Assembly (NCBI RefSeq): GCF_001624705.1
Contig: NZ_JSEO01000010.1
Coordinates: 157,211 to 221,210 of the forward strand
Direction of reading: 5' to 3'
DNA: 64,000 nt
DNA from: Marinomonas sp. SBI8L
GTDB lineage: Bacteria > Pseudomonadota > Gammaproteobacteria > Pseudomonadales > Marinomonadaceae
Below, in pieces: positions 5,810-24,157 of the stretch. The notes below the pieces were generated by a model that saw nothing but the letters and a program-made list of their open reading frames with translations, did no database searches and was not told the origin of the DNA. The first letter of the stretch is position 1. Each line of letters begins with the position of its first letter. Both the position numbers and the translations under genes were made by a program.

Positions 5810-6075
5810 TAATCTGTCCTGTTCATGGTTAATTCAGATTCTTCAAACTCACTAAAACAAAGCATTTATCGGGCCACACTTATCCACCAGATAATCTTTT
5901 ACTAAAGCTTGTGCTTAGGGAGTGTATGAAAATAATATGACGCTATTTTAAAAGTGATAGTGAATGGGTGCAAACGCCTATTTGTCTGAGGAAGAACTAA
6001 ATTCCCCCTTGAGCAAATGCATTAACCCAGATAAAGTGCTCATTCCTTTATTTTATGGTGTTTTGAGTTAAGCCT

Positions 6076-6549
6076 ATGTCTAAAATTATCCTACTCGTGA
6101 TCATAGTTGCCCTTGCCTTTTTATGGTTTAACAAGAGCAAGAAAAATAAACAACTGGCCATAGAAAATGCCAGTGCTGGTAGTGCTTTTTTAGCTGAAAA
6201 TGCAAAAGACCCAGATGTTGTAACAACAGATTCAGGCCTACAATTTAAAATCTTGCAACAAGGCACAGGTGATGTGCACCCAAATGCCACAGACCAAGTA
6301 AAAGTGCACTATCATGGCACCTTAGTTGATGGCCGTATTTTTGATAGTTCAGTCGATCGTGGAGAGCCAATTTCATTTGGTTTAAATCAGGTGATCAAAG
6401 GCTGGACTGAAGGGGTACAACTTATGGTCGTTGGTGAAAAGCGTCGCTTATTTATTCCAAGCGAACTTGCCTATGGCCAAAGCTCAGCCGGTATTATCAC
6501 ACCAGGTTCCACCCTAATTTTTGATGTTGAATTACTTGAAATTAACTAA
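6076..6549 (+). CDS. Membrane-anchored FKBP-type peptidyl-prolyl cis-trans isomerase
   Basis: The 157-residue protein begins with an uncleaved hydrophobic helix (IILLVIIVALAFLWF, about residues 4-18), then a short linker and a complete FKBP domain (about 48-157). Conserved FKBP features are VKVHYHGTLVDGRIFDSS, QVIKGWTEGVQLM, RRLFIPSELAYG and the C-terminal LIFDVELLEI. The domain isomerises X-Pro bonds. The single helix suggests anchoring in the inner membrane with the domain probably periplasmic; the topology is inferred. It resembles the FklB/FkpA type but lacks their dimerisation helices. A strong terminator follows. Confidence 0.88.
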   Translation: MSKIILLVIIVALAFLWFNKSKKNKQLAIENASAGSAFLAENAKDPDVVTTDSGLQFKILQQGTGDVHPNATDQVKVHYHGTLVDGRIFDSSVDRGEPISFGLNQVIKGWTEGVQLMVVGEKRRLFIPSELAYGQSSAGIITPGSTLIFDVELLEIN

Positions 6550-6568
6550 ATAAAGTATCAAGAAAAAA

Positions 6569-6600
6569 GCCATCACTTGATTATAAGTGATGGCTTTTAA
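6569..6600 (+). terminator. Rho-independent terminator after the FKBP gene
   Basis: Ten-base perfect stem GCCATCACTT / AAGTGATGGC with a six-base loop, followed by a T-rich tail. It lies between convergent genes. Confidence 0.85.
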
Positions 6601-6655
6601 GTTTTAATTCTCGTTTTAAATCTTTGGCATTTTTCATACGCCAGCATGGGGCTTA

Positions 6656-7054
6656 TTAGCCATTTATTAATATACCAACAACTTGGAAATTGAGTGTCAG
6701 TGGATTCAAGCTCTTAGCATTATCAATTGTTACATGCGCTCTGGTATTTGGAGATTGAAAATGTCCCTCTCCTAAACTACTCATACCTAACGAACTAAAG
6801 CCTGCGATGATATGCCAACTACCTTCTAGCCCAACTGAATCAGAATGAGACTGACATAAAGCTTTAATATCATTTGCAGCTAAAGCGTAATCCATTGTTT
6901 CCATTGTGATATTTTGCTGGTTGAAGTCATATATGGCCATAGACCAAACTATCTCTGCAATACCATCGTCACTGTCCAGCTTAGTAATTTCAGCCATCAA
7001 ATTTGGCTGATCATTTACAATTAAAAGTTCCTTTTTATAGCCTGACACCAACAT
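6656..7054 (-). CDS. Hypothetical protein, 132 aa
   Basis: I do not recognise this protein. It is soluble-looking, with no signal peptide or membrane segment, and predicted to be mixed alpha/beta. Visible segments include IAEIVWSMAIYDFNQQNITMETMDYALAANDIKAL and a C-terminal hydrophobic strand NPLTLNFQVVGILING. It is convergent with the FKBP gene and isolated on its 5' side by a 551 bp intergenic region carrying a dispersed repeat. Codon use is like its neighbours. Start ATG 7054 has only a weak upstream ribosome site. Confidence 0.55.
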   Translation of the reverse strand: MLVSGYKKELLIVNDQPNLMAEITKLDSDDGIAEIVWSMAIYDFNQQNITMETMDYALAANDIKALCQSHSDSVGLEGSWHIIAGFSSLGMSSLGEGHFQSPNTRAHVTIDNAKSLNPLTLNFQVVGILING

Positions 7055-7316
7055 ACTTCATTCCTACTAAAAATCTTATCCGCTTATTAAACCAGATATA
7101 AGCAATAAAAAAACAGAGATAAACCAACAATAAGAAAAATAAATAAGGAAGAGCCATAAATAAACTGCATTAAACCGAAATTCAGAAGAGTTAGTTCTCA
7201 ACAGGATGGAGAATTAGACCTCACTTAGCTTAGCCATGGTCCAATGAAACCTTAGTAAAACACACAAATAGACACCTATAATATGCAGCGTTTAAATTGT
7301 TATTGGACCTTATCGC

Positions 7317-7609
7317 TTAAGGAACCTACGAATAACTCCTCCCGCCTCAGCGTGTGAATAAAAACCGCTAGATTTATGGCGAGGAGCGCAACTTAATAGT
7401 TATTCTATTAATAAGATTCTCAACATAAAGATAGGTTTTTTAGACCACGCCCTTCGGGTCTTTGAAGAATACCTAAACGGCATTTCAGAGAAAGTAACAC
7501 CCTGTGTTGTCACTTCTCGAAAGGTACCTACATTACGTCAAAGTAACGCCTTGTGTGACACTTTTCCTGAAAAGACTGAGAAGAGGTGACTTAATCGCAG
7601 GTTCCTTAA
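7317..7609. repeat. Dispersed intergenic repeat, copy A (MITE-like, about 293 bp with terminal inverted repeats)
   Basis: The ends are imperfect inverted repeats: TTAAGGAACCTACGAATAA at 7317-7335 and TTAATCGCAGGTTCCTTAA at 7591-7609. The first ~105 bp align, in reverse orientation and at roughly 75% identity by eye, with 11331-11439; both share TCCTCCCGCCTCAG, CTAGATTTATGG and AACTTAAT in order. The interior holds two consecutive hairpin-forming direct repeats starting AAAGTAAC (7491 and 7540). No open frame is present. The right end overlaps the stop codon of the gene at 7606-8349. The rest of the intergenic region (7055-7316) shows nothing I can name. Confidence 0.6.
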
Positions 7610-8349
7610 TATTCAGGAAAATAACGAGATAGGATTTTTTGATATTGGCCACTCTCTTTAATAGCCACTAGACTGTCTTTTAACGTTTGAATTAACACAG
7701 GGTCGCTTTCAGGGTGCATAGCAAGATAGAGCTCCTCAGATAAGTCATCTATCCTAAGTACTCGTTCAATCAGATCAAGATCCAACCCAGCCTCCTTCAC
7801 CTGATAAGGAAGAGATGCCTCATCATAAGCAATTAATTCCATGCGTCCATAAATCAGCATACGCACAACAAATTGATCAGCATTTGCGACTTCTAAGTGC
7901 TTAAAGCCACGGTTTTCCAAATACATTTTTATGGCATCTTCCTGAGACACACCAATTTTATGCGATCTAGCTTCGTCAAATGAATGAATATGTAAATCTG
8001 TATTCGACTTTAACTTATAAAAAGAGGTTCTATAGGGCGCGATGGTTCCCAACCAAGCAAACATGGATTCACGTTCAGGAATACGAGCAATAGAATAAAT
8101 TAAAGTATTAGGTTCAAGCTGAGCCGTTCTATAAGCTCGCGGCCAAGGAAGGAACTCAATATCAGCATCAAGATTTGCGTGTTCAAGCACAGCTAACACC
8201 ACTTCGCTCGAAACACCTTCTGCCTTGTCTTTAACTTCAAAATTATAAGGCGGGAAATTCTCAGTAACGATTCTTAATTCTAAATGAGGGTCAGCACGAG
8301 CAAAATTGCTCAACAAGATGAGTAAAAGAGATAACAAACGCAAGTGCAT
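7606..8349 (-). CDS. Periplasmic solute-binding protein, family 3 (amino-acid type)
   Basis: This 247-residue secreted protein has a signal peptide (LRLLSLLLILLSNFARA) and then a family-3 binding-protein fold: ELRIVTENFPPYNF at the mature N terminus, GVSSEVVLAVLEHANLDADIEFLPWPRAY, and a C-terminal SLVAIKESGQYQKILSRYFPEY. Such proteins bind amino acids or other small ligands in the periplasm, either for ABC importers or as stand-alone sensors. No permease or ATPase gene is adjacent, so it is an orphan; orphans of this type are common in marine gammaproteobacteria. Its stop codon lies inside the terminal repeat of the intergenic element to its left. Confidence 0.85.
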   Translation of the reverse strand: MHLRLLSLLLILLSNFARADPHLELRIVTENFPPYNFEVKDKAEGVSSEVVLAVLEHANLDADIEFLPWPRAYRTAQLEPNTLIYSIARIPERESMFAWLGTIAPYRTSFYKLKSNTDLHIHSFDEARSHKIGVSQEDAIKMYLENRGFKHLEVANADQFVVRMLIYGRMELIAYDEASLPYQVKEAGLDLDLIERVLRIDDLSEELYLAMHPESDPVLIQTLKDSLVAIKESGQYQKILSRYFPEY

Positions 8350-8500
8350 GTAATTTAGCCCCTCTCAAAAACTGTCGATGCTCTCCTCACACCTTTAGCC
8401 TAGTTGTGTCATTTAAATAATGCGATCCCTAGCATTAGTACACTTTATCAAAGTGCCATTCTGCCCTAACTAATCAAGTTTTCATATGTTGTTAGCATAG

Positions 8501-8533
8501 CGGAGAAGCACAACCTTTGCTCTTGCTTCTCCG
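8501..8533. repeat. Perfect 10-bp inverted repeat
   Basis: CGGAGAAGCA at 8501-8510 pairs perfectly with TGCTTCTCCG at 8524-8533 across a 13-base loop. There is no T-tract on either strand, so it is not a clear terminator. It lies downstream of the DUF1203 gene and upstream of the binding-protein gene. Confidence 0.5.
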
Positions 8534-8619
8534 TAATAAGCAGCCCCTCATACACAATTCATCTAGCTATTTAAGGGTAAAAAATACCCAACTCAAATTC
8601 AAAAAGCTCTACTCCCCTT

Positions 8620-9132
8620 TTAACGACAAAGCTCCGCCCTAAGGCTAAAGCATCCAAAAGCCGCATATCTCGCAATGACAAAAGCCACTCGCTCATGTGA
8701 GAGATAATCAACCAGATCGGCTTCAGCTTCTTCTAAGCAAGTTAACTTGGCATCTAGTATTCGCTCATCTTTAGAGTAGGCTTTTAGAACAAATGGGCCA
8801 GAAAAATAACCTACCTTATCATCATTCAAATTTGATAGGGTCAAATCTCCAGTGTCTTCATTACTCGCATTCGCTAGTACAAATATTGGCCCATATTCCT
8901 TATAAGGACCCGATACATTAAAAGGACAATAACTTGCTAAAATTAACTTCTCTCCAGCTTTAGCACGCCTAAATACATCTCGACATGGCTCGCCACCAGA
9001 AGCCGTTATTATCTCAACCGCTTGGTTTTGATCATCCAACCCTTCAACCCTAACTTTATCTAAAAACTCAGGCTTAATTGGTTTTATTTGATACTTCATC
9101 TTTAACCACTCATCGTTGTTACTATCATTCAA
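8620..9132 (-). CDS. DUF1203 family protein
   Basis: The protein resembles the DUF1203 family: PCRDVFRRAKAGEKLILASYCPF, then GPYKEYGPIFV, then a C-terminal domain ending in FGCFSLRAEL. The function of the family is not known to me. The first ATG is 9132 (170 aa); the family usually begins nearer to MKYQIKPI, so ATG 9099 (159 aa) may be the true start, and neither has a strong ribosome site. It is a cytoplasmic soluble protein in an accessory-looking region with no evident operon partner. The family call rests on recall of the Cys-Arg and GPY motifs. Confidence 0.75.
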   Translation of the reverse strand: MNDSNNDEWLKMKYQIKPIKPEFLDKVRVEGLDDQNQAVEIITASGGEPCRDVFRRAKAGEKLILASYCPFNVSGPYKEYGPIFVLANASNEDTGDLTLSNLNDDKVGYFSGPFVLKAYSKDERILDAKLTCLEEAEADLVDYLSHERVAFVIARYAAFGCFSLRAELCR

Positions 9133-9421
9133 ACAAATAAGTGATCATTAATAACTGAGTCTTTAAGGCAAAACATCCAGATATTGTTTTTGTATTTTAG
9201 AAGCAAAATTTGACTTTATTTGACCACATAAAACTATAAATTTTGAATTTTTTGATATAAGCAGTAAGGATAGAGAGATAGTTTTGTCATTATTTTGATT
9301 GATAACAATTTAATTTATTAATAATCTCTTTTGCCAATTAAGAGTGAGTGATGAATGACAGCATTTTTGTCTCACTCTCTCCTAAATTGATTGTTAATTT
9401 TTTAAAGGATGTTTTTCAAGG

Positions 9422-11218
9422 ATGAGAAAAGCCATATTCATTGCTATGACTTTTATACTAACTGCTTGTGGAGGCAGCTCAGAAACAAATAATAATGTTT
9501 CAGGATCGAACTTCACCTTAGGCTTCTCTTCCATTAAAAGTTTTGACTTTAGCTGGCAAGTTCAAAGTGGAGCAACTCACTACAAGCTATTAGAAAATAA
9601 AGACTCTAACTCTGGCTTTATCCAAGTAGGTACTGACATTTCAAGCAATACACTAAGCTATAGCCACTTAGTACCACTCTATTCAAGAATAAATGCCCAA
9701 TATATTTTACAAAGTTGTAACGCAAGTGAGTGTATTGATTCTGACACACTATCGGTTAATAACGCCTTAACTGACAGCATTGGTTATGTAAAAGCAAGCA
9801 ATACTGATATCGACGACAATTTTGGCAAAAGCTTATCTCTATCAGGTGATGGGCTGACATTAGCTGTTGGGGCTTATGCAGAAAATAGTAGCAGCACAGA
9901 TATAAATGGAGACCAGACTGATAATACGTCAAACAACGCTGGAGCCGTCTATATCTTTGATAAAAGTTCATCTGGCAATTGGACTCAACACACTTATTTA
10001 AAAGCCAGTAACGCTGAAGCAGGAGATTTTTTTGGTTTTAGTGTAAGCCTAACAAGTGACGGTAATACACTCGCTGTTGGCGCCGTTTTAGAAGATAGCA
10101 GTTCAACAGGCATAAATAGCGACCAAATAAATAATGCCGCTATAGATTCAGGTGCCGTCTATCTTTACTCACGGGATAATAACAACGTATGGAGCCAACA
10201 AGCTTATATAAAAGCCAGCAATACAGACAGTGAAGACTATTTTGGTGAGAACCTTAAACTGTCTTCTGATGGAAGTACGTTAACTGTTAGTGCCTCTTCC
10301 GAAGACAGCAGTTCAACAGGTATTAATAATATACAAACCGATAATACAAGCTCTGATTCTGGCGCTGTTTTTGTCTTTACACGTGACTCAAATGATAACT
10401 GGAATCAGCAAGCTTACATAAAATCAAGCAACACTGGCTCAGGTGATTTATTTGGGAGCAGTGTGTCACTATCTAGCGACGGGGACTTACTAGCTGTTGG
10501 GGCTTTAGACGAAGACAGTGGTTCAACAGGCATTAATGGCGACCAAATGGATAATTCTACAGATGGATCAGGTGCCGTTTATATTTTCTCAAGAGATACT
10601 AATGCCTTATGGACACAACAAGCATATTTAAAAGCAAGCTTTAAAGATAGAATCAACCTCTTTGGAGATCATTTAGCACTTTCAGCAGATGCTAGTACAC
10701 TCGCGGTTAGCTCACCTTATGAAGATAGTGATTCAATAGGCGTTAATGGTGACCAAACGAATAAAAATGCACTTTACTCTGGTGCTGTCTATATTTTCGC
10801 AAAGGACATGAGTAATAACTGGGAACAAGAAGCCTATATAAAAGCCAGTAACACCCAAGCTGACGATCAATTTGGTTATCACCTAGACATTTCTTCAGAT
10901 GGAAATATTTTAGCTGTCTCGGCTATCAGTGAAAGCGGCAATACAGATGGGTTAAATGGAGATCAAAATGATAACTCTCAGAACAAGTCTGGTGCGGTTT
11001 ATACCTTTGTGCGAAATGGCACTGTTTGGAGTCAACAAGCTTATTTAAAAGCAAGCAATACAGATAAAGATGACAAGTTTGGAGAAGCTGTCTCTCTAGC
11101 AGCAGATGGATCAATTTTAGCTGTCGGAGCCTATTTAGAAGACAGTAATGCGATAGGCATTAATGGAGACAAAACAAAAAACAATGCCAGTGCCTCTGGT
11201 GCAGTATACTTATACTAA
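9422..11218 (+). CDS. FG-GAP repeat lipoprotein with seven tandem 70-residue repeats
   Basis: The 598-residue protein has a lipoprotein signal (FIAMTFILTAC, lipobox LTAC) followed by GGSSE, then a fibronectin-III-like segment (about 30-115). Seven repeats of about 70 residues follow, beginning near bp 9785, 9994, 10205, 10415, 10625, 10835 and 11042, a DNA period close to 210 bp. Each has KASNT-, FG-SLSLSSDG, LAVGA, DSSSTGINGDQ-DN and GAVYIFSRD modules. FG-GAP repeats form integrin-like beta-propellers; the DxNGDQxDN loop looks like a calcium-binding loop. It is probably surface-anchored, perhaps in adhesion. The ribosome site is weak. It stands alone; the downstream genes are convergent. Confidence 0.85.
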   Translation: MRKAIFIAMTFILTACGGSSETNNNVSGSNFTLGFSSIKSFDFSWQVQSGATHYKLLENKDSNSGFIQVGTDISSNTLSYSHLVPLYSRINAQYILQSCNASECIDSDTLSVNNALTDSIGYVKASNTDIDDNFGKSLSLSGDGLTLAVGAYAENSSSTDINGDQTDNTSNNAGAVYIFDKSSSGNWTQHTYLKASNAEAGDFFGFSVSLTSDGNTLAVGAVLEDSSSTGINSDQINNAAIDSGAVYLYSRDNNNVWSQQAYIKASNTDSEDYFGENLKLSSDGSTLTVSASSEDSSSTGINNIQTDNTSSDSGAVFVFTRDSNDNWNQQAYIKSSNTGSGDLFGSSVSLSSDGDLLAVGALDEDSGSTGINGDQMDNSTDGSGAVYIFSRDTNALWTQQAYLKASFKDRINLFGDHLALSADASTLAVSSPYEDSDSIGVNGDQTNKNALYSGAVYIFAKDMSNNWEQEAYIKASNTQADDQFGYHLDISSDGNILAVSAISESGNTDGLNGDQNDNSQNKSGAVYTFVRNGTVWSQQAYLKASNTDKDDKFGEAVSLAADGSILAVGAYLEDSNAIGINGDKTKNNASASGAVYLY

Positions 11219-13828: not shown

Positions 13829-14977
13829 ATGGATAAAACCAGACGCCTTTGGATTTCAAGGCTTATAAAAGGCAGTGGATGCGCAGCGTTATGTACAAAC
13901 CATCCTTTGCTGACAGCCATTGAGTCGAGCTCTGAAGCTGATATTGCAATTCGAAACTCCGCTGAATACATAATGACTTATGCTTCCCCCTACGCAACTG
14001 ATGCCTACAAATACTGCCCTCATATGCACCTTGAATTTAAAAAGAATATTGAAGAGATGTCTTCTGGCAGAATCTACGTTGATATCAAAGACAAAGGCAT
14101 TTTAGGAACAGGTCATGAGCTAATGGCGAAAGTGGCAAGAGGCGCTATCTCAGCAGGATTAGTCTCAGTTTCCAACTTAACACCCGCAGCCCCCGAGCTC
14201 GATATTCTTAATATTCCATTTTGGTCCGCTAAAGACCAAGCTTACTTAAACCTTGTTACCTCAAATACTTGGAAAGAGCTCATTATTGATAGAGTAAAAT
14301 CTCAAGGTAAATTAGATGTTTTATTCCATTACTTACCGGGGTCAAGAACAGCCAGCTCAACAATGAAATACGGTAAAGTCATCAGACGGCCCGACGAAGT
14401 TAAAGGCACCATCTTTCGTATACCTAATAGCAAGGCACTCAAAACCTTTTATGAACTAGCAGGCGCATCACCTGTCGATGTTGACTGGGTGAGCGTTGCT
14501 TCCATGGCCAAACATGGTCGGATTCAAGCATTAGACCCCAGCGTGATTGGCCTACATAACGGCCCTCGTGGTTTACGCCATCACGTTGGGAACATCTCAC
14601 AAATTCAAAGTGTATATGACGGTTGGATAGCAGTAGTAAGCCAACAATGGTTTAACCGCTTACCTTTAGAATTAAAACTAGCACTCAAGGATGCTTCTGA
14701 AAAAACCTTTAGAGAACATTTAAGCAGTATCAGCCAAGTAAGAGCAAACTGTACAAATAGCTTCGAAGACTTAGGCGCTAGCATTTATGTCCCCACCCAT
14801 GAAGAAAGAGAAGAATGGATTAGACGATGTGGACCGAATAACGAAACATGGACCGCAATCAAAAGAAATATATTAGGAGACGATAAAACTTTCCAAAAGC
14901 TCGTCGATGCCACAAAAACCAATAATGGTTATAGCATTACCTCTTTAAACAATTTAGAAGGTTATTCATACAGTTAA
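13829..14977 (+). CDS. TRAP-type transporter substrate-binding protein, DctP family (orphan)
   Basis: The 382-residue protein has a DctP fold: YCPHMHLEFKKNIEEMSSGRIYVDI, a GHELMAKVARGAISAGLV segment, LDILNIPFW, the ligand-carboxylate arginine region VKGTIFRIPNSK, and VYDGWIAVVSQQWFNRLP. The N terminus KTRRLWISRLIKGSGCAAL looks like a twin-arginine export signal, as in some DctP proteins. A good ribosome site (GGGAG) precedes ATG 13829. TRAP systems import organic acids using a proton or sodium gradient, but no DctQ or DctM gene is adjacent. The stop codon lies only 3 bp from a tRNA-like fragment at 14980, so lost neighbours may have been displaced. Confidence 0.85.
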   Translation: MDKTRRLWISRLIKGSGCAALCTNHPLLTAIESSSEADIAIRNSAEYIMTYASPYATDAYKYCPHMHLEFKKNIEEMSSGRIYVDIKDKGILGTGHELMAKVARGAISAGLVSVSNLTPAAPELDILNIPFWSAKDQAYLNLVTSNTWKELIIDRVKSQGKLDVLFHYLPGSRTASSTMKYGKVIRRPDEVKGTIFRIPNSKALKTFYELAGASPVDVDWVSVASMAKHGRIQALDPSVIGLHNGPRGLRHHVGNISQIQSVYDGWIAVVSQQWFNRLPLELKLALKDASEKTFREHLSSISQVRANCTNSFEDLGASIYVPTHEEREEWIRRCGPNNETWTAIKRNILGDDKTFQKLVDATKTNNGYSITSLNNLEGYSYS

Positions 14978-14979
14978 AC

Positions 14980-15023
14980 GGTAAGGCTAGGCAGATTCGA
15001 ACTTTGACCTCATCCATGTCAAA
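14980..15023 (-). repeat. Degenerate 3' half of tRNA-Val(GAC), likely att site
   Basis: This stretch matches the 3' half of the intact tRNA-Val at 23940-24016 in the same orientation: GGCTAGGCAGATTCGAACT and then GACCTCATCCATGTCAA are identical, with one substitution near the acceptor end and a small indel/substitution between the two blocks. It begins at the tRNA 3' end and stops in the anticodon arm, as expected for an attachment-site duplicate left by an element integrating at a tRNA 3' end. Confidence 0.75.
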
Positions 15024-15249
15024 GTCAATTCAGAGCCGGAATAAACCTTTGAATCTAAAGGATTTTCGAGAATTTATTTCCAATTTTTTCTAGAAATCGT
15101 GCCCTTATAAATCAAGCACTTAGATGCAGAGTAGAAAACTCGTTTCCGAAGCTTTATTCTAGTTTACATTAGCACGTGAGTAAATAAAAAATACTTTGCA
15201 CTGACGGCTTTCTATTAAGGAGAAGCCATCATTGAAACAACAAAAGAGA

Positions 15250-16836
15250 CTAAGAGCAGCTCGTAGTGTCCTTTATCACTAAAGTAGGGTTTTGGCCCAT
15301 AAGCTCATTAATTTGATAGCAAGTTATTTTATTAAGACCGCTAATATCCAACGTTTTCAACTTTTGTAATGAATATAAAGGGCTAATATCCTCAACTTCA
15401 TTGTCGCTCAAATCTAACTCTTCTAAATCAGATAACTTAGCTAATGATGAGATATCCTCGATTTGGTTGTATTTCAAATTCAATTTAGTAAGGCCTACAA
15501 GCGATTCTAAAGCACTAATATCGGTAAGATTGTTAGTAGAAACATTTAGGTTTTTTAAACCCACCATTCCTTTTAGATCATCAATGTTATCCAACTTCAT
15601 CGTATCTAAAAAAAGGGTCTCAAGTGACATTTTTGAAATATCAGACAGAGGTATATCTGAGCCATACAACTCAAGCTTAGTAACCGTGTTAAGAGTTTCT
15701 AGTTCCTGACTTCTAAAATTTGAATCTACATAATAAAGCTGCAAGCTTTCTAAAGTGTTCAAATTAGCAAGACTTGAAATATCCGTTACATCTGTTCCAT
15801 TAAGAGCTAAGTCAGTTATATTTTCCAAGCGGCTAATACGCTGAATATCAGTATTCTTCGTATAATAAAGCGTTAATTTAGTTAAGTTTTTAAGGCTCTC
15901 TAAAACGCCATAGTCAGCAAAGTCCAACTGTTCTGTTCTACTGTGACCACCGAGCCAAACTTCTTCTAGACTTGTTAAATTCGTCAAAGGGCTAAAGTCA
16001 GTAATCATATTACCGTCCAGCATGATGGCTTCTAAAGTTGGGTACAAACTTACCCACTTTAAATCGCTTAAACTTGTATTAATTAAATCAAGTGTTTTTA
16101 AATTCGGAAAAGGAGAGTCAAAGTTTGATACTAATGCAAGATTATTTACCTCACGGTCCCTTATCCCAAGAAACTCTAACGAAGGTAATTGACTTAAAAT
16201 ATACAGGTCATGGTCTGTAAGAGGGTCACCAAAATCATCACTAAAAGTACGAAGTTCGAGAAATTGCTCTATCCCTACCAAAGTATCTAAAGCTCTAAAG
16301 CCACAATCCAAAGTAATCACCTCAGACATATATACCCAGCCCTCACTCCGAAGGTAGCCATCTAAACATTGCTGCAAACCAATGCCTTTCATTCTGCCTA
16401 AGTCAGAAATTTTAGGGTTAGGTAACAAGGCAAAACTCACCTCTTCACTCGTAACAACTTTATTGTTATGAATAACATCTAATGCAAAACTAAGATTAAT
16501 TTCATGAATCGAATTTGGCAGCGTTATAGTGGCAGAAGTCTCATTCTTACCAGACTTAAAGCTTGCTTGAGGAGCGATCTTTCCAGTTTGCTTCCATTCA
16601 TACGAAAACTGATTACTTTTGATATTTCCAATAGCAGCATTCAGGTTTAAATCTAAATTTGAATAAACAGGTAATACGCTATCTATCTTTACTGTTGGAA
16701 TATCATCTAGAGGCAAATCAGTTGAACTACCAGAAGATGAGCTATCTGTCGCACTGCTGCTGGAACTATCATTTTCTGAAGAGCAGGCACTCAAAATACC
16801 AAAAACAATACAATACTGAACTAAGCGTAAAAACAT
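15250..16836 (-). CDS. Leucine-rich-repeat lipoprotein
   Basis: The protein is about 528 residues. A lipoprotein signal ends in GILSAC; a Ser-rich linker follows (about residues 20-42), then a beta-rich domain (about 50-140) and about a dozen internalin-type LRRs of about 22 residues (for example LTKLNLKYNQIEDISSLAKL and LEELDLSDNEVEDISPL). Internalin-like LRRs mediate protein-protein contact at the cell surface. ATG 16836 has AGGTG 7 nt upstream and is preferred over GTG 16845. It lies inside the tRNA-bounded island with no partner gene and may be cargo. The binding partner is unknown. Confidence 0.85.
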   Translation of the reverse strand: MFLRLVQYCIVFGILSACSSENDSSSSSATDSSSSGSSTDLPLDDIPTVKIDSVLPVYSNLDLNLNAAIGNIKSNQFSYEWKQTGKIAPQASFKSGKNETSATITLPNSIHEINLSFALDVIHNNKVVTSEEVSFALLPNPKISDLGRMKGIGLQQCLDGYLRSEGWVYMSEVITLDCGFRALDTLVGIEQFLELRTFSDDFGDPLTDHDLYILSQLPSLEFLGIRDREVNNLALVSNFDSPFPNLKTLDLINTSLSDLKWVSLYPTLEAIMLDGNMITDFSPLTNLTSLEEVWLGGHSRTEQLDFADYGVLESLKNLTKLTLYYTKNTDIQRISRLENITDLALNGTDVTDISSLANLNTLESLQLYYVDSNFRSQELETLNTVTKLELYGSDIPLSDISKMSLETLFLDTMKLDNIDDLKGMVGLKNLNVSTNNLTDISALESLVGLTKLNLKYNQIEDISSLAKLSDLEELDLSDNEVEDISPLYSLQKLKTLDISGLNKITCYQINELMGQNPTLVIKDTTSCS

Positions 16837-17413
16837 CCATGTCACCTATAACCAACGCAATATTGCGTACAAAAAACAAGGTGAGATTTTATTTTTTAAG
16901 GTGAATACGATCTATTAGAGTTGGTATTAGATTTTTTAGTATTTAGTAACACTCAAGCCTTATACAGCACACCGCACTTCTGTAGTAACGAGAATTACCT
17001 GCAAACCAAGTATAGCAATCAATCAAATGACAAACAGTATTTAGCCTGCTTGTCTAAGTAAGAAAGCGCTTTAATGTTTATCTTGCTTGGACGCTCGTTA
17101 GCCTCTGATTTTACAGCTTTTATTGAAGAAGCCCACAGCCTATTCCTACTAAACACACAGAAAATGTGGACTTTTCTTTGAGTTATTCATCTGATCACAC
17201 TCGTTTTTATTGTCTAAAAGTCACTACAAAAAATCCTTTGAGCAACTGGTATGGAAAGTTATATAAAGATAAAAAATGTCAACTTGTTAGACACTTAGCT
17301 ATTACCCAAAGCACAATGTTAAGAATAGATAACGCCCCTTGAACAACTCAAACTTCTCACCTAGCTTTTTAAGACAGCAGTAAAAACATATGAACTAAAA
17401 AAAGAGAGTTACA
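16837..17413. other. Intergenic region, no gene seen
   Basis: About 577 bp of AT-rich sequence between divergent genes. I see no long frame, RNA gene or convincing repeat. It could be decayed coding sequence. Confidence 0.4.
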
Positions 17414-17788
17414 ATGAATACTCAAAAATTACTGTCGATGACAATCAATGAGTATGAAAACTTAGAAAGCCAGATAAGTTTCATCATAAGCTCCCACGAG
17501 CCTCAAAACAGTTTAAAAAATGTTGTCATACATAATTTAAATTTTTTTGATGACTGGCTAATGAATGACATCAATGAAAGCATAAAAACAGATCAAAACT
17601 ACCTAAGATCGGTCTGGCTTCATTCTGAACTGATACATGAAGTAAAAAGCATACTAGAAGATGCTGAAAATAATTACACAGAGGCCGTGCACACCAGATT
17701 AGAAGAAAATAGTAAGTATAAAGTATTGTTTAAGAGACTATTATCGACATTAAAAAACTTGCAGGTCAGCCTAAACGACATCGAATAG
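17414..17788 (+). CDS. Hypothetical protein, 124 aa
   Basis: I do not recognise this protein. It is predicted to be almost entirely alpha-helical and soluble, with amphipathic stretches such as LLSMTINEYENLESQISFIISS and VLFKRLLSTLKNLQVSLNDIE. A GAGAG ribosome site lies a few bases before ATG 17414. It is the only plus-strand gene in the tRNA-bounded island and converges with the membrane-protein gene at 17817. Confidence 0.5.
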   Translation: MNTQKLLSMTINEYENLESQISFIISSHEPQNSLKNVVIHNLNFFDDWLMNDINESIKTDQNYLRSVWLHSELIHEVKSILEDAENNYTEAVHTRLEENSKYKVLFKRLLSTLKNLQVSLNDIE

Positions 17789-17816
17789 AATAAGTTCTAG
17801 TAGGTTAGATCCCACC

Positions 17817-18104
17817 TTACCCAAAATCATTATTTTGCTGCTTGCCTAGCTTGTACATTAAATAAGTAAAATAAACCGTGTTGAAAGCAACAAAAATGAG
17901 GTTTGGCAAGTTGTCAGATATCGCACCGACTTGTACAAGTGTTAGCGGGATAGCGACAACAGCCATGCACATAAACAACATAGCCGGATACAGCCACCTA
18001 TTTGTTTTAACCAATTTTGTCACGAATAAAACAGATACTCTTACCGCCAAAAGGGACAGTATCAAGAAAAATAGCTCGAGATACTCACTCTCAAATAACG
18101 CCAT
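17817..18104 (-). CDS. Small integral membrane protein, about 95 aa
   Basis: The protein has three hydrophobic segments (ELFFLILSLLAVRVSVLFV, WLYPAMLFMCMAVVAIPLTLV and LIFVAFNTVYFTYLMY) and an acidic N terminus. I prefer ATG 18104 (MALFESEY), preceded by AAAGG at a normal distance, over the upstream start at 18131. I do not recognise the family; phage or island membrane proteins of this size are common. It is downstream of the antirepressor remnant on the same strand. Confidence 0.55.
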   Translation of the reverse strand: MALFESEYLELFFLILSLLAVRVSVLFVTKLVKTNRWLYPAMLFMCMAVVAIPLTLVQVGAISDNLPNLIFVAFNTVYFTYLMYKLGKQQNNDFG

Positions 18105-18235
18105 ACATTGCCTTTTCGGTTGCCATAACAATAAACGTCAGATTTTAAACAGCATCATAGCAAAAGCCTAACACTTTATTAGGCTTTTCTAATATTCTAA
18201 ATTACAGCCCTTATCGCCTGCTCTAAGCAGTCTTA

Positions 18236-19133
18236 TCAATAAACTTTACTGTTCATGTGTGCGACGTGCAGGCGCTCTCTGGCGATGCCGTATAGTCTGG
18301 GGTTGGTTGTTTTGAGTGTTGGGAAGATGGCGTCTTCGAAGTCTCTTTTCATCGCAGTGGTGTGGGAGTGGATGAGTTTCATATTGTACTCATAGAACTC
18401 TATGCGGCGCTCCATTGAGGCGACGTATTCGCTTGTAGGGCTGTCTGCTCTGCCTAGGTACTCGCCTTCTAACGCGGTTTGGATAAAGATTAAGCCTTTC
18501 TCTAATTGTGCTGGGGTTGCCTCATCCAACTTACTTACACCTAGATAGTTATTCACCTCTTCGCCAATTTTAGCGCGCTCGACACTCATATGGTGTTTAG
18601 AGCGTTTATTGGCTAGCGCTAAGATATTCCCTTCTAGCAAGTTGGCCATGGTTCTCGTCGCTTCGTTTGCTTGGCTATGTTGGGTGGGGTCGATCGCTGG
18701 GCTTTCTATTGCTGGAGAATGCGAGTTAGTGGCTTTGAGTTGGCGTTCATATCTAACAAAGAGCCGATGAAGTTGTGGCGGGCTTCGCGGCCTTTTAGTG
18801 CAGCTCTACCATGGCAAGCTCTTTCGCCATATCGAGAGTGATGAAGTAGTCTTTTGTTGGTCTACCGCCCGTATTTAGGGTTTTCGCCCGTTTTGGCGAA
18901 AACCCATTTTGATCATTTAAAGAGATCAAAATGAAGTCTTCATCTTCAACAAATTTATATTGATTGATTCTGGCTTTCATCCAATTAGAAAAGTCACGAC
19001 CAACTTCTAAAAAGGTATGTAAATCGCGTGCGTTAACTGTATCGCAGTTTTGATTGTTTATTATGTGAGAATATAGTGGAAGGATTTCGGTTGAGTTCAA
19101 GCGTTCTGCTTGTATTGCAGATTGCATAGCCAT
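18236..19133 (-). pseudogene. Phage antirepressor (AntA/AntB-type), broken into pieces
   Basis: The 5' piece (19133-18795, 112 aa) is an AntA/AntB domain: NARDLHTFLEVGRDFSNWMK, then FVEDEDF, GRPTKDYFITLDMAKELAMVE, cut by a stop where the family continues. The next bases in another frame encode KGREAR, and a third frame (ERQLKATNS leading into MANLLEGN, 18649-18236) encodes a typical antirepressor C-terminal domain with YLGVSKLDEATPAQLEKGLIFIQ. At least two frame changes separate the pieces. Antirepressors inactivate phage repressors to trigger lytic growth. The gene's ribosome site AGGAGG is intact and faces the C4 antisense RNA upstream. It is richer in GC than the adjacent ATPase operon. 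Confidence 0.8.
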
Positions 19134-19138
19134 CTGTG

Positions 19139-19182
19139 GCCTCCTACGGTCTAATATTGACCACCGGATGAGGTACTAATCT
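19139..19182 (-). promoter_or_regulatory. C4 target sites and ribosome binding site of the antirepressor
   Basis: On the minus strand the antirepressor start (ATG 19133) is preceded by CCGTAGGAGGCC, which includes AGGAGG at 19140-19145, and farther upstream by GATTAGTACC (19172-19181). C4 RNA contains TCCTACGG and GTACTAA, complementary to these two blocks, so pairing would mask the ribosome site. Confidence 0.75.
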
Positions 19183-19190
19183 CAAAAGGA

Positions 19191-19264
19191 GGTGGGTCTG
19201 AATTAGGTTAGTACTACCGCCCGTAGGAACGGCCTAGCCGAAGCTAGCCCAACAAAGACCCACC
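19191..19264 (-). ncRNA. c4: C4 antisense RNA controlling the phage antirepressor
   Basis: Read on the minus strand, a 74-nt unit is closed by a perfect nine-base stem (GGTGGGTCT / AGACCCACC) that encloses a CTAGC-TTCG-GCTAG hairpin and a CCGTTCCTACGG hairpin, followed by GTAGTACTAACC. Established knowledge: C4 RNAs of P1/P7-like phages are processed from the leader of the antirepressor transcript and pair with two blocks at the downstream ribosome site. Both complementarities are present here: TCCTACGG with CCGTAGGA and GTACTAA with TTAGTAC. The position, upstream of an AntA-type gene on the same strand, is as expected. Confidence 0.88.
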
Positions 19265-19283
19265 ATAACAGGCGGATTCCGGC

Positions 19284-19309
19284 CACAAAAAAACACGCGG
19301 TGCGTGTTT
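19284..19309 (-). terminator. Rho-independent terminator (minus strand) between the HNH gene and C4 RNA
   Basis: On the minus strand AAACACGC and GCGTGTTT form a perfect eight-base stem with loop ACC, followed by a run of T residues. It ends the ATPase/HNH operon or acts as the leader terminator of the phage immunity transcript. Confidence 0.8.
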
Positions 19310-19404
19310 GAGGCCGCTACGGAGAAACGGGGTACTAATCCCGACACTGGATTTTGCCAGTGCATTTAAATGGTAGACCTAAGAGGGTTTGGGTGTCAAT
19401 GAAA

Positions 19405-20106
19405 TTATAAATTGTACTTACTAAGCTCATTCCCTGATAGTTTAGCTAGGCCAATGTTTGTAACATCATTTAATAGTTTTAAACAGTGTGCTTTTTCAAA
19501 GTTTGTTTCAGCTTCTTGAACCCTATTATTTAAATCATTTATAGCTTCAAAATACCCACTATCTAAATCTTCCCCATCTAAATTAATTTTTTTAAATAAG
19601 AATCTATCTAATCGACAAACTTCAATAGTATTTACTCCTTTAGCATTATTTTCTTTTGGGTAGTAAATCATTGATTTCTCCAGCCAACTAATATGTTCAA
19701 AATAATGATCAAAATGAGGATGTACAATAATGTAATCAGACGATAAATCAGGGAATGTTTTTCTATTAGGGTTTTTCAGAACATTTTTCGCACCTTTAAT
19801 AGTGTTACAGTCCTTACATGACAAGGCTAAGTTTTCTGGAGTAAACATAAATTCTTCTTTTACACTTTTAGAAATAATATGCTCTATATCCCAGCTACCA
19901 CCATGATCAACAATAATTGTTTGTTTGCAATAACAACATGTATAGTTTTGAATCTTCAAATAATATTTTTTTATCTTTTTTTTAAGGTTCTCTAAGTTCT
20001 TATTATCTTGTAAATTCCAAAAAGAGGAGCATTTATTTTCATCATTTTCATACTCTTCAACAACTTTATTATCGTTTTCATCATAGACAATAGGCTTAGA
20101 TATCAC
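19405..20106 (-). CDS. ptuB: HNH endonuclease, PtuB-like (Septu defence)
   Basis: The 233-residue protein has a classical HNH/zinc architecture: C57-x2-C60, D73-x-E75-H76, N92, then C97-x2-C100-N101, with K at 104. The start is GTG 20106, overlapping the TGA of the ATPase gene (GTGA, four-base overlap), with AGGAGG 8 nt upstream inside the ATPase gene; this implies translational coupling. An AAA ATPase followed by a coupled HNH protein is the Septu (PtuA-PtuB) architecture, in which the nuclease is the effector and the ATPase the sensor or regulator. It lies in a phage remnant. The Septu assignment rests on domain order and motifs only. Confidence 0.78.
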   Translation of the reverse strand: MISKPIVYDENDNKVVEEYENDENKCSSFWNLQDNKNLENLKKKIKKYYLKIQNYTCCYCKQTIIVDHGGSWDIEHIISKSVKEEFMFTPENLALSCKDCNTIKGAKNVLKNPNRKTFPDLSSDYIIVHPHFDHYFEHISWLEKSMIYYPKENNAKGVNTIEVCRLDRFLFKKINLDGEDLDSGYFEAINDLNNRVQEAETNFEKAHCLKLLNDVTNIGLAKLSGNELSKYNL

Positions 20107-21509
20107 TTAGCAGCCTCCTCTACTTTAGACAGCACCTCTTCAAGCATAATCATTAAGTCGTACACAGGATCGTTCTCTAAAATAACCCCTTTTAAATCAA
20201 GAATACCTTTAGCATCAATTATCTGATCTTGATTTAGATTACCACTAGATCCAAAACTTGTTAAGAGCTTGATAATTGTTCTTGTTAAAAACTCATTTTT
20301 AAATCCTGGAGTTTTAAAAACATTTGCCAATTGAAAATCAACAGACCTTTTATTATAATCAGTAGAAGGATGTAGTTTACGATCTGACATTGACATAACA
20401 AAGCAATTTCTGTCACGTAACTTAGATATCATTAAGGGTGAATGAGTTGCAATTATAAAGTGGCAATTTTTATACTCTTCAAACGTTTTCATCAACAGTT
20501 CAATATATCTCTCTTGCCATTTTGGGTGTAAGCATACTTCTGGCTCATCAATAAAAATCATTGAACTTTCACATATCTTACTTGCGATGCCAAGAATACT
20601 TAAAATCACACTTTGCTCACCAGAGCTTGCTTCGCCAATTAAAAACGGTTCCATTTTATTTTTCTTAGTTAATTTAATCTCCTTTAGAGAAATAATCCCA
20701 CAGTTCAATATTAAATCTAAATAATCTGAAACATTAAAATATGAATCAGACCTAACACCTTTATCACTCAAACTTATATCGAACTTTCCTCCGCTGTAAT
20801 TTAACAATATCAACTCAACAAAATCTAAAAAATGTTTTATCCTTTCAAAATTATAAACGTCATATTCATTCTCATAGTTATCAAAAAGTTCTTCATGAAA
20901 AAAGTAGGTATTTTGTTTATATTTTTGCTTTAAAATAGGTCTCAAATACTCATAAATAAAATTTTCAGTAGCATTACTTGACAATGATTTTTTTTCATAG
21001 TTTATAAAAGAATGAGAAAATTCAAATATTGCATTTATTTTCCTTTCAAAACCAATAACATCAAGAGCTTTTGTGATATTTATACAAATAGATTTATTAT
21101 TAATCGCAGACTTTAAAAGTGAAGAATAAAGGCTCTCCATATAAATATGACCTAAACCATTGCCGTCACTTGATATATTAAATAACTTTCTCAAACCTAA
21201 GTAATGATAATCATTATTTTTACTTTCATTTAGCGGAAACCTGTCAAATGGACTCATAGATGCTGAAATTATATTTTGGGGTAATTTTTCGCCATAAAAG
21301 TTAAGTTTGAATAATAAAGCTAATTTACCAGCAATTATAGGTTCAAGGTTATTCTTAGAGCAAATACAATCCTCAATAATTTTTTTTAAAAGCCTACTTT
21401 TACCAGATCCATTTTCACCAACAATTATTGTAAATAAATTATCTATACTACTTACATCATTAGGTAATAACTGATAATTTTTTTCCTGAAAGGTAAAATT
21501 CTTCAACAT
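20103..21509 (-). CDS. ptuA: AAA-family ATPase, PtuA-like (Septu defence)
   Basis: The 468-residue ATPase belongs to the OLD/RecF-like ABC-AAA group: Walker A GENGSGKS at residues 31-38, an ABC-type signature SSGEQSVILSILG around residue 300, Walker B SMIFIDEPEVCLHP about 20 residues later, and the H-loop IATHSPLMIS. There is no TOPRIM domain, unlike OLD nucleases. The AT-rich composition and codon use differ from core genes. It is third in a tightly spaced operon (31 bp after a membrane-protein gene) and overlaps the HNH gene. Septu PtuA proteins are ATPases of this size that hold the HNH partner inactive. Retron PtuAB pairs are similar, but no reverse transcriptase is present. Confidence 0.8.
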   Translation of the reverse strand: MLKNFTFQEKNYQLLPNDVSSIDNLFTIIVGENGSGKSRLLKKIIEDCICSKNNLEPIIAGKLALLFKLNFYGEKLPQNIISASMSPFDRFPLNESKNNDYHYLGLRKLFNISSDGNGLGHIYMESLYSSLLKSAINNKSICINITKALDVIGFERKINAIFEFSHSFINYEKKSLSSNATENFIYEYLRPILKQKYKQNTYFFHEELFDNYENEYDVYNFERIKHFLDFVELILLNYSGGKFDISLSDKGVRSDSYFNVSDYLDLILNCGIISLKEIKLTKKNKMEPFLIGEASSGEQSVILSILGIASKICESSMIFIDEPEVCLHPKWQERYIELLMKTFEEYKNCHFIIATHSPLMISKLRDRNCFVMSMSDRKLHPSTDYNKRSVDFQLANVFKTPGFKNEFLTRTIIKLLTSFGSSGNLNQDQIIDAKGILDLKGVILENDPVYDLMIMLEEVLSKVEEAAK

Positions 21510-21540
21510 TACAAATATAATCCTTTAATAAATCACACTA

Positions 21541-22083
21541 TCATTTATTCTTATCTGTCTGATAAATGTCATACCATCTTCCGACTCTAAGAAGAGCAAA
21601 AGTTGCAGCTAATGTTAAAGATAATGCATATATAAACACCCAATATCCTATGAAATTTCCAACAATAATCATATCGTGAAAATATCCATTAAAAAATTCA
21701 ACAAAGGGATGATCTAACGGTAAACTAAAATCATATGCTTTCCTAAACAAAGCTATAAATAAAGCAACTACCTGCAAAACTATAAAATGAACAAAAGCAC
21801 CGTTTAACGATAAAAACGGTGATGCACCATCTTCATCACCATCATCACCAGCAATTAAACTTCTAAATTTTTCATCGCCAATTGCTAAAAACATTGCATA
21901 CCCACCTAATGAAAATCCCAATAAGTTCGGCATAATTGACAGAACATCATCCCACCAACCTGAAGCAGACCAATGAGGAAATAGTGCAATACTTATGAAA
22001 AAGGAACCATAAAGGTAATAGCTCTTAAGCAGAGCTCCAAAACCTCCATATGCTTTATAATAAACACTTAGAATGTTACTCAT
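21541..22083 (-). CDS. Four-helix membrane protein in the defence operon
   Basis: The protein has 180 residues. Four hydrophobic segments are visible: YLYGSFFISIALF (about 24-36), IMPNLLGFSLGGYAMFLAI (50-68), FVHFIVLQVVALFIALF (97-113) and FIGYWVFIYALSLTLAATFALL (142-164). A short acidic loop, DDGDEDGAS, separates helices 2 and 3. I do not recognise a family. The gene lies 25 bp after the DUF4747-like gene and 31 bp before the ATPase gene on one strand, so co-transcription is likely. Small membrane proteins in defence operons can be abortive-infection effectors; that role here is inference. Confidence 0.65.
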   Translation of the reverse strand: MSNILSVYYKAYGGFGALLKSYYLYGSFFISIALFPHWSASGWWDDVLSIMPNLLGFSLGGYAMFLAIGDEKFRSLIAGDDGDEDGASPFLSLNGAFVHFIVLQVVALFIALFRKAYDFSLPLDHPFVEFFNGYFHDMIIVGNFIGYWVFIYALSLTLAATFALLRVGRWYDIYQTDKNK

Positions 22084-22108
22084 AGCATCTCTCGACTATA
22101 AAATTTAT

Positions 22109-23005
22109 TCACTTTGATAGTTTATTACTCAGTATAGTTTTAAGTTTGCTAGTCATCCTATACATAAAAGCTATGGGCATTGACTCTTCTGAAGGGTCAT
22201 ACATTTCAGTCTCTTTGAAAGGCTGGCTTACAGTAGAATATTCAATTGGTTTGCTAGCATGGTCACGACCCTTTATTTTAAGGCTTCCATTTTTTGCAGC
22301 TATATGGGCTAAAACTTTTAAGCCATCATCTACTTCAATGCTTTGCTCTGCATCTGCAATGAACTTTTGCTCAATTCTTTGAACTTTATTTTTCTTCATC
22401 CTATTCAGAAATGCTGCTTCTTCTTTTGCGAATGAATCTGGATTCGGCTTTTTAAAAACTGTCTCGATACTTCTCTTAAAAGGAATATTTAACGCTTCTT
22501 CTAAACCATTAATATCAGGTAAATGCGTTACCTCTACTTCTCCAAATTTTTCTACTATTTCTTCTTGAGAAAATAACTTATTAAAAAAATCTGTAGCCAC
22601 AGTTGGACCTAAAGTTTTTTTGTCATAATAAGACTCATAAAATAGCATGTGTTTATCCGGATAAAATATATAGGAAAACCTGCTTCCATTTGGCCTTAAG
22701 TTTGGTGGAATATTTAGACTCTCTTTATCATCATCAGTAGCTATGTCATTGGTTTCAATATTTATCCATGGAGCATCAGTATCTATTTGGGTAAACCGCC
22801 AAATGTCACCAGTTACAGGCTTAATTGAATCATCACACCAAGGGTAACTTCGTACTCCAGCTAACAAAGCACCCGATGTAGAGTTCAACTTAACCACTCT
22901 TTTCAATTTAAATGCAGCCTTAAATAAATCTACATATTTTTTCTCGCTGTGCGGCTGAATTGTTATGTTTATAGCTCCAACAGACATTCTTTTCAGACTT
23001 GCCAT
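22109..23005 (-). CDS. DUF4747-like protein, first gene of the defence operon
   Basis: The 298-residue soluble protein begins SVGAINITIQPHSEKKYVDLFKAAFKLKR, which I recall as the start of DUF4747 proteins, known mainly from prophage-like contexts and without an assigned function. Further features are DIWRFTQIDTDAPWINIETND, RFSYIFYPDKHMLFYESYYDKKTLGP and a C-terminal lysine-rich region. The start ATG 23005 has AAGGA at a proper distance. Sequence around it is strongly AT-rich. It is upstream of the membrane-protein, ATPase and HNH genes with no large gap. The family name is moderate confidence; the coupling to the Septu-like pair is the interesting point. Confidence 0.6.
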   Translation of the reverse strand: MASLKRMSVGAINITIQPHSEKKYVDLFKAAFKLKRVVKLNSTSGALLAGVRSYPWCDDSIKPVTGDIWRFTQIDTDAPWINIETNDIATDDDKESLNIPPNLRPNGSRFSYIFYPDKHMLFYESYYDKKTLGPTVATDFFNKLFSQEEIVEKFGEVEVTHLPDINGLEEALNIPFKRSIETVFKKPNPDSFAKEEAAFLNRMKKNKVQRIEQKFIADAEQSIEVDDGLKVLAHIAAKNGSLKIKGRDHASKPIEYSTVSQPFKETEMYDPSEESMPIAFMYRMTSKLKTILSNKLSK

Positions 23006-23124
23006 GATTAATCCTTATCATCCTTTTAATTGTCGAAACTTTACTGAGCCACCATATTCTAAGCAAGAAATTTCCAAATTTATTTGAAAATCATTGATAA
23101 AATTGCATTTTTAAAAGCCAAAAA

Positions 23125-23691
23125 TCATCCTACACTCGCCCTCACCAGCACCCTATAGCCCTGCTTATTCCCACTGGCGGTGACGGACTCTATTCGCCAC
23201 TCTCCAGCTAAAATCGTAGGGAAACTCCCATCTAATATCAGCTGAGCCCCTACGACTAGCGCCTTGTGATCTGGTATGTTGCTTGGTACTTCTAGGGTGA
23301 GCTTAGACCCTTGCTTACGCTGTGTTTTTAAGAGCTCGTCTTTGGCTGCTTTCATGGCGGTGGCTTGGGTTGAATAGGCTTGCCGCAATTTCTTAAAAGG
23401 CGCACTGCCTGTGCTGATGGTGTGCTCCTCCCCTGTTTCGCTGTCGGACCAGCTGGCTTTGATGCCGCTCACGGTTGTGCGACTTGATTGCTCTAGTTGG
23501 CAGTTGATAAAGCCGCTGTCGCTGGGTGTGTTCTTGCTCGGCATGGATAAGGTGACTATGGGTAGACGCTGGCCTGAGAGGGTTTTCTCTCGTCCTTTTG
23601 GAGACAAGACGTATAAATCGTTAACCGGCTTTGCGATGGCGTCTCGCTCTCTGGCAAGCCTTGTCAGAAAGGCCACGTCTGTTTCATCACT
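23125..23691 (-). pseudogene. Phage late control protein gpD (P2-like tail protein), C-terminal fragment
   Basis: About 189 codons remain, from SDETDVAFLTRLARERD through LYVLSPKGREK to GEWRIESVTASGN and VLVRASVG. These match the C-terminal part of P2 gpD-like tail proteins, which form the hub of contractile tails. The frame is open upstream only to a TAG at about 23700, where unrelated sequence begins, so roughly the N-terminal half is deleted. Base composition is much richer in GC than the adjacent operon. No tail neighbours (U, T, X) or ogr remain. It is a deletion remnant of a P2-like prophage. Confidence 0.75.
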
Positions 23692-23783
23692 TCTCTTCTA
23701 TAAAGTGCGTCTAGGTGCTCGATGAGTTCGTCTTCATATTCGGAGGCGGCTCTGGGGCTAAAGCCGTGGGCGGTGACTATATA
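23664..23783 (-). other. Short phage-like coding remnant abutting gpD
   Basis: Forty codons between two stops read YIVTAHGFSPRAASEYEDEL and then IEHLDALYRREVMKQTWPF. The peptide looks like genuine protein sequence but I cannot assign a family. It overlaps the truncated 5' end of the gpD remnant in another frame, which marks the deletion junction near 23690-23700. Confidence 0.35.
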
Positions 23784-23866
23784 TCAAAAGAGATCGGCAA
23801 GACCTTGTTTTGCTGTCTTTAGTTAAAACTGTAAAAGAGTTAAAGATTACTTTTCTTATAAGCACA

Positions 23867-23902
23867 AAAAAGCCCCTTAGAAACGAATCTAAGGGGCTTT
23901 TT
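23867..23902. terminator. Bidirectional terminator downstream of tRNA-Val
   Basis: A perfect 14-base stem (AAAAAGCCCCTTAG / CTAAGGGGCTTTTT) with an eight-base loop lies about 38 bp past the 3' end of the tRNA, with T-tracts on both strands. Confidence 0.9.
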
Positions 23903-23939
23903 AATGTATGAATAACCAAAGCTACTAATACATTTAATT

Positions 23940-24016
23940 TGGTAGGGCTAGGCAGATTCGAACTGCCGACCTCATCCATGTCAAGGATGCGCTCTAACCA
24001 ACTGAGCTATAGTCCT
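23940..24016 (-). tRNA. tRNA-Val (anticodon GAC)
   Basis: The 77-nt cloverleaf starts AGGACTATAGCTCAGTTGG, has anticodon arm CATCC-TTGACAT-GGATG with GAC at the wobble position, T arm GGCAGTTCGAATCTGCC, and an encoded CCA end. The acceptor stem contains one A-C mismatch (fourth pair). The 3' half is duplicated at 14980, marking it as an integration target. Confidence 0.95.
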
Positions 24017-24157
24017 ATAAACTTGATGGCGAGAATTATACCTATGCAAAATAGCTTGGCAAGCTTTATGCCTAAATTTTATTTAAGCGTTTGTCACTTA
24101 TTGTTGATATTTAGGTTCAGCTATTTTTGTTTAACATTCAATATCTTGCCTTTAGCT

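Follow-up and report, generated by a model that had tools for sequence, protein, structure and literature searches.

A window of 64,000 nt from contig NZ_JSEO01000010.1 of Marinomonas sp. SBI8L was analysed with respect to a four-gene cassette on its reverse strand, in which a DUF4747 protein and a membrane protein precede the two components of a Septu defence system. In the direction of reading, gene 1 (22109..23005; 298 aa) encodes a DUF4747 protein of RexA/RdgC-like predicted fold and is proposed here as an infection sensor (rexA-like), while gene 2 (21541..22083; 180 aa) encodes a four-helix membrane protein proposed as the membrane effector (rexB-like). Gene 3 (20103..21509; 468 aa) encodes PtuA, the Septu ABC-type ATPase, and gene 4 (19405..20106; 233 aa, GTG start) PtuB, the Septu HNH endonuclease. 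According to the list of open reading frames (ORFs), the genes are separated by 25 bp and 31 bp and then overlap by 4 bp, the GTG start of ptuB lying over the ptuA stop. An earlier sequence-only reading of this DNA, made by a model, had regarded the cassette as an AT-rich operon and the upstream pair as the extension of a composite Septu system, perhaps one of membrane sensing or abortive infection. As checks, it had named profile searches, structure prediction for the 298- and 180-residue proteins, and a survey of neighbourhoods for co-occurrence, the proposal falling if the upstream genes never accompany PtuAB elsewhere. Its four ORFs, their strand and their spacing were reproduced exactly, and the AT-rich character (GC 0.28-0.35 against 0.41-0.45 in seven compared chromosomal genes) was likewise recovered.

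The profile searches place genes 3 and 4 in Septu, as the motifs had suggested. PtuA matches PADLOC family PDLC00283 (E 7e-116; best model PtuA1) and PtuB matches PDLC00345 (E 1.9e-69; best model PtuB1), along with the HNH domain PF01844 (30.8 bits against a cut-off of 21.4). In PtuA, the motifs GENGSGKS (residue 31), SGEQ (296), FIDEPE (319) and ATHSP (354) align with those of its relatives (about 27-36% identity to plasmid and phage PtuA), and the Walker A, signature, Walker B and ATHSP motifs are all intact. In PtuB, CCYC (residue 57), DIEH (73) and SCKDCN (96) supply the CxxC, EH and CxxCN elements. Judged by these sequence features, the two genes would form a Septu type I system, with an ABC-type PtuA followed by an adjoining, overlapping HNH PtuB. 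For the studied Septu Ec-B88, anti-phage activity is reported to need both ATPase and HNH residues (PMC13096335). Related ATPase and HNH effectors also occur in the PtuAB of type I-A retrons (Ec78/Eco7); PtuA weakly matches solved retron PtuA chains, PtuB has no match by sequence to solved chains at E 0.01, and the NCBIfam retron matches fall far below cut-off. Unlike in those retrons, the ten ORFs scanned at the present locus (small ORFs partly covered) included no reverse transcriptase, and Rfam gave no retron RNA match over 14800-24100. A differently organised Septu locus was observed in another genome of the same genus (G026, L076:6577-8584), where the C-terminal part of PtuA and PtuB share one ORF and the N-terminal part of PtuA lies in another.

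Gene 1 is a full-length member of the DUF4747 family (PF15931, E 2.3e-63; 214.5 bits against a gathering threshold of 27; positions 1-257 of 257), which upholds the earlier description. The family is listed in Pfam as a domain of unknown function, and no PADLOC model matched the protein. When its predicted structure was compared with the PDB, lambda RexA ranked first and RdgC second; by structural Z, RexA led with 8.9, followed by CENP-N, Chl4-type, Iml3 and RdgC chains. RdgC, Iml3 and Chl4 have been named as relatives of RexA itself (PMC11077077). On the evidence of the model, gene 1 thus appears to possess the RexA fold that marks the first member of a RexAB-type pair. RdgC proper is a separate gene, and an rdgC gene was observed directly ahead of the DUF4747 pair at two other loci, L044 (pair 5831-7644) and L055 (pair 7990-9924). 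DUF4747 is rare: it was found in 2/144, 1/369 and 7/398 genomes searched (the source genome being counted in each) and in three records of the plasmid collection, and no record was found in the phage collection. Searching named phages with genes 1 and 2 by tblastn gave no match, and scanning viral contigs with the single proteins of genes 1 and 3 yielded no confirmed relative.

Gene 2 matches phrog_20580 (E 9.5e-38), so that all four genes of the cassette matched a profile in Pfam, PADLOC or PHROG, at levels far above chance. Its model (pLDDT 91.7) contains helices at residues 22-38 (broken), 43-67, 89-117 and 126-179, read as four long segments, together with short extra helices. Hydropathy maxima lie near residues 17-35, 49-67, 93-111 and 149-167, the first two being moderate. 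Model and hydropathy together point to a four-pass membrane protein, and structure prediction has in this way favoured the sequence-only reading for gene 2 while giving gene 1 its RexA-like fold. Within the family of gene 2, the second helix is strongly conserved, with P52, G56, F57 and A63 present in 40 of 40 aligned sequences.

The DUF4747 and membrane genes were followed through 56 further records (L009-L064), comprising 35 genome loci, 11 viral loci, seven other genomes and three plasmids. The genome and viral loci were found by alignment scans for the membrane protein and DUF4747, the genome scan resting on two short conserved patterns. Removal of six duplicates (L012, L013, L014, L023, L026 and L028; 99.95-100% identical to retained records) left 50 distinct loci, in 48 of which DUF4747 is directly followed by the membrane gene, with a median gap of about 0 nt. 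These 48 include a DUF4747 gene split into two ORFs (L033), a membrane gene split likewise (L046) and a 61-aa DUF4747 fragment (L057). As for the exceptions, L018:1258-2169 carries a diverged partial DUF4747 ORF (65 bits) with no membrane gene in the stretch covered, and the contig of L027 begins inside the membrane gene. The order of sensor and then membrane protein, the tight coupling and the conservation are those expected of RexAB-type pairs. Furthermore, the gene next upstream of the pair encodes a CI-type S24 repressor in L022 (pair 8270-9981; gap 12 bp) and L061 (pair 8166-9947; gap 139 bp), the same succession as that of the annotated CI-RexA-RexB genes of Hafnia phage yong1. Clustering of up to six neighbours per side in the 49 distinct loci that have a membrane gene revealed no recurrent third partner, the largest cluster having five members in scattered positions. 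Among ten adjoining genes scanned, repressors, integrases, rdgC and a Mu-like protein were recognised; CI repressors, integrases or rdgC genes adjoin the pair in L022, L061, L034, L053, L044 and L055. A PADLOC scan of 128 adjoining genes (for each locus, one on the upstream side and two on the downstream side where sequence allowed) gave scattered matches to MADS, AriA, GajA and Old among the best 25 of 224 families; PtuA-like cross-matches may occur among the rest.

In its anatomy, the pair resembles lambda RexAB, Sbash gp30/gp31, CarolAnn gp44/gp43 and Pseudomonas putida PP_5643/PP_5644: a protein of RexA-like predicted fold comes first and a four-helix membrane protein second, with tight gene coupling, a prophage location and, in L022 and L061, a CI repressor as neighbour. 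It differs in showing no detectable sequence similarity to the lambda, Sbash or Butters proteins; hhalign detected no homology to lambda RexA or its actinophage relatives, in a comparison of low power with templates of one to three sequences. It further differs in standing near an isrK-C4-antirepressor module instead of a CI gene.

Whether the two pairs recur together was assessed from both sides. Among the 56 other records of the DUF4747/membrane pair or its parts, neither PtuB (0/56) nor a full Septu pair (0/56) was found within flanks that are finite and sometimes short (of 48 loci, 33 are covered for at least 2.5 kb 3' of the membrane gene and 41 for as much 5' of DUF4747); a rare second case may exist. 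Apart from an adjoining 585-aa ATPase in L031 (3e-8), the one PtuA-like match to a purpose-built PtuA profile was a marginal ATPase in L018 (0.041). Conversely, ten relatives of PtuA were examined, five on plasmids, one in a phage and four in genomes. In each of them PtuB adjoins PtuA or is fused with it, and DUF4747 or the membrane gene occurs near none (0/10) within the stretches covered, which extend 188 bp 5' of ptuA in L107 and 792 bp in L071. The plasmid and phage relatives are the six that were retrieved out of 14 PtuA matches, and the PtuA counts for genomes are lower bounds, as at most four candidates were scored per genome. The module that stands ahead of ptuA on the same strand thus sets this Septu locus apart from every relative examined. 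Within this sample, the four genes do not recur together. The composite system put forward in the sequence-only reading is refuted for the sample by the criterion which that reading had set, and was given up as the leading explanation. No report of an operon joining Septu with a RexAB-type pair was found among the titles and abstract openings surveyed.

The cassette is likely to be transcribed as one unit, since the two modules lie 31 bp apart and no terminator-like site was found in that gap. A presumed promoter site is the 119-bp AT-rich region 5' of gene 1 (23006..23124, reverse strand), a placement inferred from the sequence; a promoter scan gave 18 sites against 18.9 expected, which is chance level. 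The hairpin 3' of ptuB was considered as the operon terminator and rejected, as it is the 3' end of the isrK RNA. In composition, the four genes are alike: GC at third codon positions (GC3) is 0.21-0.26 in all of them, against 0.58 in the adjoining tail-protein fragment and 0.34-0.39 in seven chromosomal genes of the window. Separate origins for the two pairs, judged by composition, find no support, as GC3 shows no difference between genes 1-2 (117/478 codons) and genes 3-4 (158/701 codons; Fisher p 0.44). Nevertheless, low GC3 is partly a family trait of the DUF4747/membrane pair, as observed in seven relatives (DUF4747 0.24-0.38, membrane gene 0.30-0.43, locus GC 0.42-0.46), and a joint arrival of all four genes is for this reason weakly supported. 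The genes may form one AT-rich cargo block; composition is uninformative on whether they work together.

The surroundings are those of a phage remnant, as had been noted earlier. An island of about 9 kb (14980-24016) is bounded by an intact tRNA-Val(gac) gene (23940..24016, reverse strand; ARAGORN and Rfam) on the attachment-site side and by a degenerate copy of the tRNA-Val 3' end (14980..15022, forward strand; a direct repeat), presumed to be its other end. Upstream of the cassette lies the C-terminal part of a phage tail protein (23125..23676, reverse strand; phrog_52 positions 341-511 of 677, E 3.1e-34). Just 3' of ptuB, and on the same strand, the Hfq-binding RNA isrK (19288..19363; RF01394, 65.1 bits, gathering 50), a C4 antisense RNA (19185..19270; RF01695, 52.2 bits, gathering 45) and a 112-aa AntA-type phage antirepressor ORF (18795..19133; PF08346, 94.6 bits) follow in succession and constitute the antirepressor-control module of a decayed prophage. 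Such arrangements of isrK, C4 and antirepressor serve in phage immunity control, as in P1/P7 and Salmonella prophages. No significant integrase match occurred among the ten ORFs scanned. In three relatives with the same tRNA-Val site (L097-L099), only L097 (G046) has a tail fragment of the same type, without the cassette. The island also contains a large leucine-rich-repeat protein with a lipoprotein-like start (15250-16845, reverse strand; PF12799, E 1.8e-27), and outside it a 598-aa secreted-looking protein of similar repeats (9422-11218, forward strand) partly resembles a piece beside the L097 tail fragment.

Taken together, the locus most probably holds two abortive-infection modules of two genes each, independent and separately mobile, placed head to tail as AT-rich cargo of a decayed tRNA-Val prophage; it has the appearance of cargo stacked together and not of a novel machine with four components. 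This explanation draws on the gene content, the intact motifs, the RexA-like predicted fold, the conservation of the pair, the failure of the four genes to appear as a set anywhere else in the sample, and the similar composition. Of the earlier suggestions for the upstream pair, membrane-linked abortive infection accords with the RexAB-type fold and anatomy, while an extension of Septu is unsupported. Module 1 (DUF4747 and membrane protein) would act as a RexAB-type exclusion pair, by analogy with the CarolAnn, Sbash and P. putida systems from which its mechanism is inferred. The RexA-fold protein, probably a DNA-binding dimer, would sense infection, most likely by way of DNA or its complexes with protein, and switch on the membrane protein, which in turn would breach the membrane and stop growth. 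An abortive role is known or proposed for related pairs; in the Sbash, CarolAnn and P. putida systems, both genes are described as necessary and the membrane protein is the proposed effector (PMC6426606, PMC6426596, PMC12894663). DNA binding is reported for the lambda, Sbash, CarolAnn and P. putida proteins (PMC12894663, PMC11077077), and membrane damage on activation for the P. putida system (PMC12894663). Module 2 would act as Septu type I, its PtuA ATPase holding and licensing the PtuB HNH nuclease so that infection leads to the cutting of nucleic acid, possibly host tRNA-Tyr or phage DNA as in studied relatives. Septu Ec-B88 and retron-Eco7 are reported to lead to tRNA-Tyr loss, and targeting of nicked phage DNA has also been reported for relatives. 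Separately, Vibrio phage 10N.222.45.E8_PE002 (L067:2046-5370) carries, near its integrase, a gene annotated as type IV restriction together with Septu, and is a further case of stacked defence cargo.

Among the alternatives, the one with the best prospects overlaps the preferred explanation and reverses the roles within module 1, the DUF4747 protein being the antiviral effector that the membrane protein restrains until infection. Such an inversion is proposed for Butters gp30/gp31, of the same two-part anatomy (PMC7542560), and serves as a warning that sensor and effector may be exchanged in pairs of this kind. The dependence of the Sbash, CarolAnn and P. putida systems on both genes, with an effector role proposed for the membrane protein, speaks against it. 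The strongly conserved second helix of the membrane protein would suit an active part, although a binding site would suit it too. The inversion is best regarded as a minority possibility.

Genes 1 and 2 might instead be prophage housekeeping genes, their RexA/RdgC-like DNA-binding protein tilting the lysis-lysogeny switch or modulating recombination. The RdgC match of the gene 1 model, the repressors, integrases and rdgC genes beside the pair at the six loci named above, and the antirepressor-control module adjoining the cassette would all agree with this, and lambda RexA is reported to bias the switch without RexB (PMC11077077). Nevertheless, the near-constant four-helix partner (48/50), the match of a few neighbours in other loci to defence models (for example, Gabija GajA and MADS) and the persistence of the pair in a decayed prophage render it improbable. 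Slightly less credit is given to one composite four-component system, in which the RexA-like sensor or the membrane protein controls PtuAB, or the products of PtuAB trigger the membrane effector. The shared strand and close spacing would suit it, and the low GC3 common to all four genes against that of the tail gene makes a shared cargo-block history plausible; against it stand the separate occurrence of the halves throughout both samples and the completeness of each half when measured against the studied systems related to it. A graded or fail-safe version, in which one transcript yields a two-tier unit and the RexA-fold protein, on binding phage DNA or replication complexes, triggers both the membrane effector and, via shared expression or contact, PtuAB, is just as doubtful, as is its broader form, in which PF15931 would be a branch of the RexA superfamily, widespread and found mostly in Proteobacteria, that serves as an exchangeable sensor module. 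Least probable of all is an inert remnant, intact in sequence and silenced by prophage decay, as the truncated tail gene, the missing integrase match and the degenerate island end might suggest, since four full-length ORFs with conserved motifs amid fragmentary or missing phage genes suggest selection for the cargo.

Thus, both modules belong to known kinds and their tandem arrangement is real. The predicted structure of gene 1 offers a reason to treat the DUF4747 family as RexA-like, and the 48 distinct pair loci provide settings outside lambda and the actinophages where the mechanism of Rex exclusion could be examined. As a clear case in which prophage cargo carries two abortive modules, stacked one behind the other on the same strand, the cassette opens the layering and synergy of Rex and Septu to study.

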